Shown here piece by piece: positions 5,814 through 26,657 of a DNA stretch of 39,219 bases; position 1 is the first letter of the stretch; each line of letters starts with the position of its first letter. The translations under genes and the position numbers were made by a program. Under the pieces are notes generated by a model. That model had not been told where the DNA came from, searched no databases, and saw nothing but the letters and a program-made list of their open reading frames with translations. The DNA is from Verrucomicrobiaceae bacterium. GTDB lineage: Bacteria > Verrucomicrobiota > Verrucomicrobiia > Verrucomicrobiales > DEV007. The stretch covers positions 1-39,219 of the forward strand of contig JAAYAT010000269.1 of assembly GCA_012719225.1 (NCBI GenBank), written 5' to 3'.

Positions 5814-6053
5814 TCAAATCTCGATGACGCGCTCGCGTTCGTTCATCGCGCCGCAGCGCGGGCACTCGGCGAGGTCGTGATCGGTGAGGTCTTCGAAGAC
5901 ATGATCGCAGATCCCGCAGATGACGAAATGCTTGCGGCGCTGGTTTTCGCGGCCTTTTCGGAAAATCTCCGCAGCCACCCACGCGAAGAAGAGCGCACAG
6001 AGGATGCCGACGAGATAGACGGCGATCATTCCATCGAGGGTGACGTGAAACAT
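5814..6053 (-). CDS. Small membrane protein with C-terminal zinc ribbon
   Basis: 79 aa. One TM helix (about 9-29, IAVYLVGILCALFFAWVAAEI) is followed by a basic stretch (FRKGRENQRRK) and a four-cysteine knuckle C46-x2-C49...C64-x2-C67 (CGICDHVF and ECPRCGA). This should be an inner-membrane protein with a cytoplasmic zinc ribbon. The start was placed at MFHVTLDGM; the frame is open upstream but highly arginine-rich. It follows tonB by 47 bp in the same orientation and is probably part of that operon. No family name can be given. A role in assembling or regulating the ExbBD-TonB complex is only a guess from position. Confidence 0.7.
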   Translation of the reverse strand: MFHVTLDGMIAVYLVGILCALFFAWVAAEIFRKGRENQRRKHFVICGICDHVFEDLTDHDLAECPRCGAMNERERVIEI

Positions 6054-6100
6054 GGCGGGGGAAATTCCGAAAGGTACCGTGTACCGTCGTGGGGAAAAGA

Positions 6101-6826
6101 TCAACCCTCGCCGCCGATCTCGATCCAACCCACCTCCACGGCGGGGGCGGGGACGAAGCGCAGGGTCGACTCGATCACCGTGGCCAGTTCCGCCTTTTCC
6201 GACTCCTCCAGTTCGGCCCGCACACCGGTGACCCGGACGCTCCCGTCGGGCGCGATCTCCAGGTCGATGCGCAGGAGCGGCAGGGAGGCCGCGGTGCTGA
6301 GGTAGTCGTCCATGATGGACCAGGGGGCGGTGGGACGATCGACGAGAGAGGGGGCGAATTTCACCCGGATGCTCCGCACGGGGCCGCCCGAGGTCGCACT
6401 GCCCGTCTCGGGCGGGAGCGGTTCGATCACACCCGGGAGCGCCGCCGGATGCGGGGGTGCCTTCAGCTCCAACTCAGTGCGTTGGAAGGCCGGGGTGAAG
6501 CGGACCGGATGATCCTCCAACCGCACCCGCACCTCGCTTTGCGAAGAGGGCGGCAGCAGGAAGATGGTGCGGTCGGAGATGCGCTGCAGAACCGAGCGCA
6601 CCGCCGGATCCGAGGCATCGAGGATGGTGATCGTATCGGGCCGGGGCTCGATCCGGACGGGAGACGGGTAGACCACTTTGAAAAGATAAAAGCCCGCTCC
6701 GTGGACCAGGACGGAAAAGAGGAGGAAGGCGGTGAGGTAGATCCAGCCCCGCTTTTCCCGGGTCCAGAGGAACACCTTGCCCCTTTCTTCCCCCTCGTTT
6801 TCGTCCATTGCCTTTGCCGCAGCCAT
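6101..6826 (-). CDS. TonB-like energy transducer
   Basis: 241 aa, inner membrane with a periplasmic domain. A charged cytoplasmic N-terminus (1-27) leads into one TM helix (28-49) that carries S38 and H42 in SVLVHG. This is the S-x3-H pair that TonB proteins use to contact ExbB/ExbD. A Pro-rich periplasmic stalk follows (LKAPPHPAALPGVIEPLPPE), then a C-terminal alpha/beta domain (about 150-241, IDLEIAPDGSVRVTGV...LRFVPAP) that is diverged but TonB-shaped. Order exbB-exbD-tonB with 3 bp between exbD and tonB supports the call. Which outer-membrane receptor it serves is unknown; none is in the window. Confidence 0.82.
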   Translation of the reverse strand: MAAAKAMDENEGEERGKVFLWTREKRGWIYLTAFLLFSVLVHGAGFYLFKVVYPSPVRIEPRPDTITILDASDPAVRSVLQRISDRTIFLLPPSSQSEVRVRLEDHPVRFTPAFQRTELELKAPPHPAALPGVIEPLPPETGSATSGGPVRSIRVKFAPSLVDRPTAPWSIMDDYLSTAASLPLLRIDLEIAPDGSVRVTGVRAELEESEKAELATVIESTLRFVPAPAVEVGWIEIGGEG

Positions 6827-15384: not shown

Positions 15385-16236
15385 CTACCGGCTCGTTTCG
15401 CCCGCTCCGCCGGTTCCCCTCGCTTTCCCCGACGGAGGTTCCGCCCGATCCGCCGAGGCCTCGCGCTTTTTCCAGACCTTCACATAATCGACGAGGAAAT
15501 CGGCGGGGAAAACGGTCTCCGGCGTGGGGGCACCCGCCCAAGCGCCGCCGACGGCCAGGTTCACGAGCAGGAACATGGGCTGGTCCGGCACGTGCTCGGT
15601 GACGCGGTAGCGCTCCACCCCGTCGATGTACCAGCGGATCTCTCCTTTTTCCCACTCGATGGCGAAAGTGTGGAAGCCATCGGCAAAGTCGGTTCCTTGG
15701 TATTCGCCGGTGACGGAGAGAGAAGCGCCGCCGGGATTCGCCGGATCGGGCCGGTGCAGGGAGAGGTAAGCCTTGTCGGTCTCGTGCCCGAGGATTTCGA
15801 GAATGTCGATCTCGGGCGGCCAGGCAGGTGGGTCGGGCAGCAGCCAGAAGGCGGGCCAGAGTCCCCTGCCCCGCGGAACCTGACAGCGGATCTCGAAGCG
15901 TCCGTAGGTCTGGGCGAACTTGCCCGAAGTGGACATCATGCCCGAGCGGTAGTCGCGTTTGGCACCGTCGTAAAAGGCGGGCTCGTCCTCGCAGCGTATC
16001 GTGAGGATACCTCCCTCGGTGTGGAAGGCCTTGACGATGTAGGCCTGGAGTTCGTCGTTGCGCACCACCCCCCAAGGATCCTTGGGAGTCCACCTGGAGT
16101 AATCAAGTTTTTCCCCGTCGAACTCGTCGACGAAGGTCAGCTCCCAGATTTTGGAATCGACCGGATCCTGACCCACCAATAAAACGGGAAGACTCGTCAG
16201 GAGGAACAGGGCGATCCGTGGGGAAAATCGATGCAT
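15385..16236 (-). CDS. Secreted glycoside hydrolase family 16 (laminarinase-like)
   Basis: 283 aa with a signal peptide (MHRFSPRIALFLLTSLPVLLVG). GH16 hallmarks are complete: FVDEFDGEKLDYSRWT at the start of the domain, GRFEIRCQVPRGRGLWPAFWLLP, and the catalytic E142-I-D144-I-L-E147 (EIDILE), in which E142 is the nucleophile and E147 the acid/base. Further motifs are FHTFAIEWEKGEIRWYIDG and FLLVNLAVGG. The enzyme should cut beta-1,3 or mixed beta-1,3/1,4 glucans, or related algal or plant polysaccharides, outside the cytoplasm. The specificity cannot be fixed from the motif. The last 25 residues (EASADRAEPPSGKARGTGGAGE) are low complexity. Confidence 0.92.
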   Translation of the reverse strand: MHRFSPRIALFLLTSLPVLLVGQDPVDSKIWELTFVDEFDGEKLDYSRWTPKDPWGVVRNDELQAYIVKAFHTEGGILTIRCEDEPAFYDGAKRDYRSGMMSTSGKFAQTYGRFEIRCQVPRGRGLWPAFWLLPDPPAWPPEIDILEILGHETDKAYLSLHRPDPANPGGASLSVTGEYQGTDFADGFHTFAIEWEKGEIRWYIDGVERYRVTEHVPDQPMFLLVNLAVGGAWAGAPTPETVFPADFLVDYVKVWKKREASADRAEPPSGKARGTGGAGETSR

Positions 16237-16440: not shown

Positions 16441-16947
16441 GTGCAAGAGTACGCCTACATTCACGACGAGGATGACATTCCACCCCCCATGCTGGAGGTC
16501 CCCTTCCTCGAAGCCTTTTCCAAAGAGCATCTCGATCAAGTGCTCCACGCCTCCGCCTTCATCGAATGCGATCCGGGCGACGTCATCATCGCCGAGGGGG
16601 ACGAAGCCTCCCGCATTTTTATCCTGCTCTCCGGCGAAGTCGCGGTGGTCAAAGGCGGCGAACAGCTCGTGACGATGGACCAGACCGGCGACATCTTCGG
16701 GGAACTCGCCGCCCTTGAAGACGAGGTGCGCTCCGCCTCCGTCGTCGCGGTCAAGGATGTCTTCTGCCTCGCGGTGGACCAAAAATTTCTCCAGCACATC
16801 CTTCCGAAAGAGGACAACGCCCCCTTTTACGCCTGCCTCTACGAGTTCATCGCGAAGCTGACGACCAAACGCCTCAAGGCGACGTCGCAGTATCTCGCGA
16901 AGGTGGATCAGGAGTTGCGGGATCTGCGGGCGAAGGCGCGTTCTTAG
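16441..16947 (+). CDS. Cyclic-nucleotide-binding (CAP-like) domain protein
   Basis: 168 aa from GTG 16441. Residues about 20-135 are a cNMP-binding domain: FLEAFSKEHLDQVLHASAFIECDPGDVIIAEGDEASRIFILLSGEVAVVKGG, then DQTGDIFGELAALEDEVRSASVVAVKD. The phosphate-binding cassette is FGELAALEDEVRSAS, with the usual Glu in GEL and Arg in VRSAS. The C-terminal 30 residues form a charged helix (TTKRLKATSQYLAKVDQELRDLRAKARS) with no helix-turn-helix, so this is a stand-alone sensor and not a CRP regulator. The start is inferred from the promoter: GTG 16441 is the predicted transcript 5' end. ATG 16489 would be the alternative and would still keep the domain. No Shine-Dalgarno precedes either. Confidence 0.82.
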   Translation: MQEYAYIHDEDDIPPPMLEVPFLEAFSKEHLDQVLHASAFIECDPGDVIIAEGDEASRIFILLSGEVAVVKGGEQLVTMDQTGDIFGELAALEDEVRSASVVAVKDVFCLAVDQKFLQHILPKEDNAPFYACLYEFIAKLTTKRLKATSQYLAKVDQELRDLRAKARS

Positions 16948-17276
16948 CGGTTAGCTTTTTTGCTGTTTAACGCGGGGCTGGGGGGGCTTCGGCTTTCGGG
17001 CAGGGGTTGGACGGTTGGACGGGAAGGGCGAAAACGATCATCGCAGGTGGTCCGACGGCTCACCGGGACGGTTCGCCCTACCTTTTCGCAAAAGGTGCTG
17101 CGGAATCCGATGGGATCTTCGCAGAGGTGCTTCGGCATTCGGCCTTGGCTTCGGGGCAGAGGTGGGGCGAACCGTCCCCGGTGAACCGACTGGGCATTCA
17201 GACTCCTTCGGTTCGCATCCCGCTAAACCGCTAAACAGCAAAAAAGCTAACCGCTAAACCGCTAAACCGCTAAACA
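16946..17276. repeat. Nested inverted-repeat element (MITE- or REPIN-like)
   Basis: The gene-free stretch 16948-17276 is built of nested inverted repeats. The outer arms are a perfect 24 bp pair, 16946-16969 and 17232-17255 (each reading AGCGGTTAGC...GCTGTTTA on its own strand). Inner arms 17057-17083 and 17160-17187 match at about 25 of 28 positions, and a small perfect hairpin CCTTTT-CGC-AAAAGG lies at 17081-17095. The right end carries an 8 bp tandem unit CCGCTAAA: two copies at 17220-17236 and three at 17251-17276. The left arm overlaps the stop codon of the cyclic-nucleotide gene. No transposase is present; short open frames inside are by-products of the palindromes. Confidence 0.8.
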
Positions 17277-17792
17277 TCACCCGGCTTTCGCGGCGGCGAG
17301 GGCGTCCTGCGCCTGGGTGGTCGGATTGGCTTTGAGGTCGCGCCAGATGATTTTTCCGTCCTTGATGAGGAAGCTCTGGCGCGAGGCGAAGCCCCGGGCG
17401 TTGGCCGGGACGCCGAAGGCGGCGATCACCTCACCGGCTTTGTCGGCGAGAAGGGTGAAGGGAAGCTTGTATTTTTCGGCGAAGGCGAGTTGGTCTTCCG
17501 GGGTGTCGGCGGACACGCCGAAGACCTTGATGCCCGCCTTGGTGACGTCCTCAAAGGCGTCACGCAGGTTGCAGGCCTGTTTGGTGCAACCGGGAGTGTC
17601 GGCCTTGGGATAAAAATAGACGAGGCTGATGCCTTCGGCGAGTTCTTTGCCCAGATCGACGGGGTTGCCTTTCTGATCTACGGTTTTCACGGCCGGAGCA
17701 TCGGCACCGACTTCGAGCGGGGCGGCGGTGGAGAGGGCGGGCGAAAGGAGACCGAAGGTCACGAGCGCGAGGAAGCAAGGGAGTGTTTTCAT
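17277..17792 (-). CDS. Exported peroxiredoxin (Bcp/PrxQ type)
   Basis: 171 aa with a signal peptide (MKTLPCFLALVTFGLLSPALSTAA). The AhpC/TSA fold follows: LEVGADAPAVKTVDQKGNPVDL, LVYFYPKADTPGCTKQACNLRD, in which the peroxidatic Cys is in TPGCT and the resolving Cys lies five residues later (C-x4-C, PrxQ pattern), then FGVSADTPEDQLAFAEKYKLPFTLLAD and RQSFLIKDGKIIW. It reduces peroxides with thioredoxin-type electrons, here outside the cytoplasm, which is unusual as Bcp is normally cytosolic. The start at MKTLPC is set by the signal. The stop touches the right end of the nested repeat element. Confidence 0.92.
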   Translation of the reverse strand: MKTLPCFLALVTFGLLSPALSTAAPLEVGADAPAVKTVDQKGNPVDLGKELAEGISLVYFYPKADTPGCTKQACNLRDAFEDVTKAGIKVFGVSADTPEDQLAFAEKYKLPFTLLADKAGEVIAAFGVPANARGFASRQSFLIKDGKIIWRDLKANPTTQAQDALAAAKAG

Positions 17793-26111: not shown

Positions 26112-26551
26112 GGAACGGGCCGGAGATGATCGCTGTTTCCTTCGGGAGGCAGAGGAAAGTCCGGACACCGCACGGCAGCATGCCCGGTGAAAGCCGGGGC
26201 ACTTCGTCGTAATGGCGGGTGACGGAAAGTGTCGCAGAAAATATACCGCCCTTCGGAGCTCCCCGGAGCGAAGAAGGGTAAGGGTGAAATGGCGAGGTAA
26301 GAGCTCACCGCCCCGAGGGCAACCGAGGGGGCACGACAAACCCCATGCGGTGCAAGACAGAACAGGACAAACGGGCAGCCGGTCCGGTTTGGCGGTTTCG
26401 GCCGCGATATGAGTCCGGGTAATAGTCGCACCTCGCTTCGGCGGGGAGAGGGCTTTTCCTCTTCGGAGGAGGGGTCCGCTAGAGAAATGATCGTCCACCC
26501 CGCTCGACCACGGGCGGAGTGAACAGAATCCGGCTTACGGAGGCCCGTTCC
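26112..26551 (+). ncRNA. rnpB: RNase P RNA (type A)
   Basis: Catalytic RNA of RNase P, which matures tRNA 5' ends. The 5' conserved region GAGGAAAGTCCGGACACC is at 26152-26169, and the 3' partner ACAGAATCCGGCTTA of helix P4 is at 26524-26538. The outer ends pair perfectly: GGAACGGGCC (26112-26121) with GGCCCGTTCC (26542-26551), forming helix P1. The internal GTAAGGGTGAAATGGCGAGGTAAGAGCTC-like block around 26277-26308 matches the conserved P10/P11 region. A T-rich run (26555-26566) follows P1 and should terminate the transcript. The length, about 440 nt, is at the long end for type A. The 5' end is 11 bp from the kinase stop. Confidence 0.95.
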
Positions 26552-26657
26552 AACTTTTTCTTTTTTGCCGTGTTTCCCGCAGCGCCGGAGTGACCGACCG
26601 TCCCGGACGAAGCCGCCCGGCGGGTCACGGGATCCGTTAAGCTTTCCAAACTATGTT

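Follow-up and report, generated by a model that had tools for sequence, protein, structure and literature searches.

The nested inverted repeat in the gap between two convergent genes of a Verrucomicrobiaceae genome consists of two superposed repeat families

The systems closest to the octamer arrays described here include the cyanobacterial STRRs; like STRR/LSSR and TAACTGA-type repeats, the arrays are built of 7-8 bp units set head to tail, lie in intergenic DNA at many loci, and carry stops in all frames. The TAACTGA heptamer repeats of Beggiatoaceae, some Cyanobacteria and Bacteroidetes (PMC4679880) resemble the octamer arrays in several ways: both have a short tandem unit whose length is not a multiple of three and have no known mover, both occur as dozens to hundreds of intergenic sets near gene borders, and both place stops in three frames, with sets that overlap the stop codons of upstream genes. 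The octamer arrays differ in their unit, TTTAGCNN, and in a shared core of 8-7-8-8 spacing. They are found at gene starts and gene ends with one outward polarity, whereas the TAACTGA sets in a Beggiatoaceae genome mostly face the start codon (PMC4679880); and TAACTGA repeats span phyla (PMC4679880), whereas the octamer is nearly confined to one genus.

The second component of our locus, a REP, is similar to the GTAG REPs (PMC3733652) and REPINs (PMC3116915) in having GTAG at one end of an imperfect hairpin, in its high copy number and extragenic position, and in forming inverted dimers of both senses with no direct dimers. GTAG repeats have been reported in the superphylum that includes Verrucomicrobia (PMC3733652). 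Nesting has precedents as well: in Anabaena variabilis GTAG-15 and H. neapolitanus CGTC-1, as here, a REP pair lies within a second, longer inverted repeat, but the outer palindrome in those cases is not found without REPs (PMC3733652), whereas our outer arms are gene-edge arrays that mostly occur without this REP. MITEs share with the present structure terminal inverted arms, small size, an intergenic position and absence from relatives; unlike MITEs, it has no common interior and no target duplication was seen, and solitary arms are common. The REP part is a further member of the already known GTAG REP type. Each ingredient of the composite is familiar, but dozens of gene-edge repeats with a fixed direction in one genome are unusual.

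The window analysed here is the whole stretch of 39,219 nucleotides of contig JAAYAT010000269.1 (assembly GCA_012719225.1). In it, a forward-strand gene for a cyclic-nucleotide-binding-domain protein (16441-16947; Pfam PF00027, E 1e-17) converges with a minus-strand peroxiredoxin gene (AhpC/TSA; 17277-17792; Pfam PF00578, E 3e-31), and the nested structure occupies the whole 329-bp gap separating the two. The longest open reading frame of the upstream gene starts at 16231, while homology starts near 16441, homologues beginning at residue ~54-70 of the long frame. The TAG stop of this gene (16945-16947) lies within, and is supplied by, the left octamer array. The peroxiredoxin gene keeps its native TGA stop (17277-17279), and the right array begins 1 bp past it. 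Gene models come from our own codon-usage caller, not a standard annotator, and gene starts are those of a simple caller. The counts below derive from searches of the genome (G000; 4.0 Mb in 443 contigs, short contigs) and from about 670 kb of stretches drawn mostly around repeat matches.

The outer arms (16944-16972 and 17229-17257) are 29 nt long and complementary at 28 of 29 positions (97%), the first 26 bp perfectly. The inner arms (17065-17094 and 17149-17178), 30 nt long, are complementary at 24 of 30 positions (80%). A small perfect 7-bp hairpin, ACCTTTT-CGC-AAAAGGT, read directly and recovered in the fold, lies in the spacer of the REP pair (17080-17096), and a CCGCTAAA tandem of period 8 (7.1 copies, 83%) occupies 17220-17275 at the right end. 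As RNA, 16944-17279 folds at -170.1 kcal/mol compared with -126.2 +/- 5.3 for shuffled sequences (z -8.3, with 0 of 100 shuffles as low). An earlier, sequence-only reading of this DNA had described nested outer and inner arms, a small hairpin, an 8-bp tandem at one end and a left arm that includes part of a stop codon, all of which our measurements reproduce; its inner arms exist too, at 24/30 in place of the 25/28 or so it had counted. The same peptide ends (GRTVP, LNSKKANR) do appear in both orientations, as it had pointed out, simply because the repeats are inverted; it is the TAGC unit that gives many neighbouring genes their stop. We detected no terminator or promoter in the gap, and no terminator-like hairpin followed by a T-run in 16800-17400. 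The structure matched none of the Rfam curated families, the sole match in the whole window being a bacterial class A RNase P RNA at 26112-26555, and a plasmid database returned no match.

Since the outer and inner arms are each dispersed separately elsewhere in the genome, the gap structure is two independent repeat families superposed and not a single element. The sequence-only reading had taken it for one large symmetrical structure, which does not hold, and for a member of a repeat family as opposed to a local duplication, which does: both parts are multi-copy (78 matches for the outer core, 67-75 for the inner REP). Of the identities it had offered, a REPIN suits the inner arms and a structured RNA is in line with the fold, but a MITE does not suit the outer arms. 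It had also proposed searching the arms through this genome and its relatives for copies and empty sites, which yielded two multi-copy families and a short, array-free gap in near relatives.

The outer arms are short octamer arrays, (TTTAGCNN)n. The left arm (16944-16972, forward strand) reads TTAGCGG-TTAGCTT-TTTTGCTG-TTTAACG, with the T-rich strand running inward from the gene. The right arm belongs to a seven-copy array (17220-17275, minus strand) of (TTTAGCGG)n with core TTAGCTTTTTTGCTG, in which the T-rich strand likewise runs inward, from the end of the downstream gene. Allowing up to 3 mismatches, a search for the octamer core TTAGCTTTTTTGCTGTTTAGC gives 78 matches across this genome versus 0 for a reversed-pattern control. 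When aligned, the copies prove to be TTTAGCNN units in runs that share an 8-7-8-8 spacing, indicating descent from one sequence with later variation in unit number. The core is present in several copies each in the same-genus genomes G001, G008, G017, G019 and G021, and in one or two copies in a few others; it is absent from all 13 genomes that we sampled in the order's other genera. Three perfect octamer units in a row, sought in 384 genomes of the class, occur outside the genus in two genomes only, once each. The octamer family is thus nearly confined to one genus. An exact 21-mer gave a single match in a scan of public genomes, to one Psychrobacter contig, likely by chance.

A 187-kb sample (contigs C1-C26) had no arrays among its commonest words; it was chosen without contigs having known matches and is so a biased background. 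In the stretches of the genome surveyed for tandem repeats, periods 7 and 8 account for 91 of 181 intergenic tandem repeats and for 8 in coding sequence, and period-8 arrays number 67 in intergenic versus 7 in coding DNA. The gaps of G000 hold many other, unrelated 7-8 bp tandem arrays (AGGAGCT, CCTAAAA, AAGTAGGA, TGAGGTGT, CTCCTTTC and others). They also hold at least four further hairpin repeat families (for example at L195, L196, L197, L206 and L225), often just past an octamer array: (GTAG)A-GGAACAT-GCCA-ATGTTCC, GTAG-AACGGGTCTCCAGGCCCGTT, GTAGGGACAGGCTA and GGAG-GGGCGCTTTTCTAGCGCCC.

Octamer arrays are placed at gene borders with a preferred direction. Only 1 of 65 arrays in this genome, and 0 of 53 in five congeners, lies inside a called coding region, and the array-bearing gaps comprise 40 co-directional, 16 convergent and 7 divergent ones. 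The 5' end of the T-rich strand is nearer the gene in 55 of 63 arrays (P 1e-9), and the same polarity is seen in five congeners (38 of 50, P 3e-4). Within about 30 bp, this end adjoins a gene 3' end in 32 arrays and a gene start in 12, compared with 6 and 0, respectively, for the opposite orientation. One orientation only is present in 54 of 63 array-bearing gaps; the remaining 9 contain both, all 9 facing inward and none outward, and enclose unrelated content of about 0 to about 400 bp. An outer inverted repeat necessarily arises wherever arrays of fixed polarity occupy the two edges of one gap. Two arms that share a gap resemble each other more closely (mean 0.70) than do arms taken from separate gaps (0.57; P 0.0005, 7 pairs), a hint of local copying from edge to edge and not of independent arrival.

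The direction extends to other 7-8 bp arrays, nearly all of unrelated unit, whose G-rich strand reads away from the nearby gene edge in 16 of 18 cases. In G000 the ~30 bp upstream of start codons are C-rich on the sense strand, with a GC skew of about 0.3 when read outward, and gene starts show on average no sign of purine-rich ribosome-binding sites. The polarity of arrays at gene starts may in part reflect this general C-rich leader of the genome.

With one TAG per unit, an octamer array presents a stop in every frame within 24 bases. Of the 34 gene ends next to an array, 24 have TAG as their stop, as opposed to 96 of 506 genes overall (P 1e-11), and in 21 of the 34 it is the array's own TAGC unit that serves as the gene's stop (list inspected by eye: TAG then C). 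Because a reading frame that enters an array must end there, the TAG excess records how often arrays reached or replaced a native stop and not a preference of the translation machinery.

The inner arms are two copies, in opposite orientation, of a REP with a GTAG tag, GGTAGGGCGAACCGTCCCCGGTGAGCC, arranged as a REPIN-like dimer. Copy 1 (17056-17082, minus strand), found by sequence search and folding, reads GGTAGGGCGAACCGTCCCGGTGAGCCG and carries the GTAG tag and an imperfect hairpin with an internal mismatch, which folds as a 3+4 bp stem with an internal loop; copy 2 (17161-17188, forward strand), found by sequence search, reads GGTGGGGCGAACCGTCCCCGGTGAACCG, has the tag GTGG, and forms a GTAG-inward dimer with copy 1. 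The consensus, AGGTAGGGCGAACCGTCCCCGGTGAGCC, opens with GTAG as the tag and continues into an imperfect hairpin. The inner-arm 16-mer has 75 matches genome-wide at up to 2 mismatches, compared with 7 for a reversed control, and the REP word GTAGGGCGAACCGTC has 67 matches at up to 1 mismatch, compared with 0 in the control. Among 46 sampled copies, 43 are extragenic and the tag is GTAG in 29 and GTGG in 12. REP neighbours within 250 bp form 14 inverted dimers (9 GTAG-inward, 5 outward) and 0 direct ones. The REP is abundant as well in G027 (37 matches), a genome from another family of the same order.

This REP differs from GTAG REPs and REPINs in that its dimer spacers vary from 42 to 214 bp and in that no RAYT flanked by GGTAGGGCGAACCGTCCCCGGTGAGCC was found at 34 Y1_Tnp loci (4 in this genome and 30 in 5 others, ~1.5 kb scanned, the assemblies being fragmented). 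One RAYT-like gene, at L111 (G000:C437:16557), has its own flanking 24-bp inverted repeat, GGGGTCAATCGACAAC, an arrangement seen at a single locus among the stretches drawn and reminiscent of TIR-flanked tyrosine transposases. At L112 (G000:C213, match at 6013-6183) and L329 (G021:C91, match at 140269-140472), the editing domain of leucyl-tRNA synthetase holds a RAYT-like Y1 transposase domain in frame. Its HUH-type motif PNHVHVVL looks intact, it is bounded by inverted GTAGCATGGGC... hairpins, and in the two species the synthetase shows no stop codon across 1057-1068 residues.

We compared the gap with its counterparts in relatives. The convergent cNMP-binding/peroxiredoxin pair is found in seven congeners, and the upstream gene ends in TGA in 7 of 7. 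The gap measures 42 bp in G021 and 575 bp in G017, and in the other five congeners it is 104, 31, 13, 117 and 205 bp long; G021, with a 92% identical protein, is the closest congener with a short gap, which holds neither array nor REP. An octamer array of at least 3 units near the gene was present at 0 of 27 homologous loci scanned. The simplest account would be a gain of the gap material once this lineage had separated from G021, with the point of entry at the upstream gene's end or just within it. Since congeners mostly have a short gap, a native TGA and no array, the insertion appears to be recent, a comparison that covers one gap. In the congener locus L137, the same gap holds a hairpin with T7 after it, the layout of an intrinsic terminator.

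We consider it probable that the structure is a composite, in which two unrelated repeat families accreted in one tolerant gap at a gene border, the 3' hairpin being incidental. The REP pair would have come by single-strand transposition of the RAYT type, acting in trans. The octamer core, with its units of 8, 7, 8 and 8 bases at dozens of sites, would have spread by some copy process, and the arrays would then have lengthened through replication slippage; we identified no enzyme or process for the octamer arrays in this analysis. Both families may persist because insertions are tolerated where two genes meet at their 3' ends. An array at a gene end would be harmless, since TAG every 8 bases stops all three frames and can substitute for the native stop. 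Both mRNAs would carry the hairpin at their 3' ends, where it may have a protective effect or slow transcription; such an effect is more likely to be incidental than to be why the structure is there. The likeness of arms within a gap counts against independent arrival of the arrays, and tolerance alone does not predict that arrays keep one polarity at the start of genes as well as at their end, so that the fixed polarity of the arrays is not explained by this scenario. That the genus instead has dispersed gene-border elements, 7-8 bp arrays with the G-rich strand pointing away from the gene at starts and ends alike, repeatedly overwriting native stops and spread by a dedicated, undescribed copying process, we regard as unlikely.

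The structure could also have been retained for a function in RNA: a single 3' hairpin, shared by the two convergent genes, would act in both directions to terminate or insulate transcription and would stabilise the mRNAs. The convergent gene pair, the very stable fold and the hairpin with T7 in L137 agree with this, and one report hypothesises that REPs act in transcription termination and mRNA stabilisation (PMC3733652). However, no hairpin with a T-run of the terminator kind was seen around the gap, arrays also precede gene starts, sit mostly in co-directional gaps and usually have no partner arm, and other congeners manage without the structure; we find such a role distinctly unlikely. That the whole is one non-autonomous, MITE-like transposon, its terminal inverted repeats being the octamer arms and its transposase being supplied in trans, is improbable. 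Near perfect inverted arms do bound an insertion that relatives lack, and the exclusively inward facing of the 9 paired gaps and the greater likeness of same-gap arms would fit, but most array-bearing gaps have one orientation only and the arms differ in unit number and sequence, unlike terminal inverted repeats. No target-site duplication was seen by eye at 16944/17275, where the left edge falls in a stop codon and the right edge after the TGA, and no carrier transposase is associated. With solitary arms common, and the interiors of paired gaps unrelated and of such varied length, we rejected the outer arms as MITE termini.

We think it highly improbable that the octamer arrays are selected translational stop cassettes marking gene borders, with each strand stopped in every frame, by TAG on one and by TAA on the other. 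Arrays have replaced the stop of many genes, periods 7 and 8 dominate intergenic tandem repeats and are rare in coding sequence, and the comparable TAACTGA heptamer also stops all frames (PMC4679880). Yet stops on both strands need no polarity, and the polarity is strong; most genes of the genome have no array, and most of the class has none at all; the period bias is what one would expect if purifying selection removes repeats that shift the frame in genes; and a genome-wide eubacterial study states that there is no evidence for selection favouring fail-safe additional 3' stop codons (PMC6764699). Growth of the arrays outward from the 3' ends of gene edges by terminal or templated, telomerase-like extension, followed by joining of the two ends, would account for the inward pairs, the polarity at starts and ends and the outward G-rich strand of the other arrays, and this genome has two reverse-transcriptase hits. 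It is nonetheless scarcely credible: G021 has octamer arrays and no RVT_1 hit (95% completeness), a core common to dozens of sites suggests that one sequence was copied, and the general C-rich leaders could yield part of the polarity at starts.

With composite accretion as the probable reading, this locus tells apart two things that together resemble one transposon, and nested inverted repeats can arise without one. A testable puzzle comes with it, in that short arrays of unrelated sequence have one polarity at gene borders in common. The octamer arrays provide a countable case of stop-codon replacement by repeats, from TGA to TAG, and a warning that, in this genus, repeats shape both the calling of genes and the C-termini of their products.
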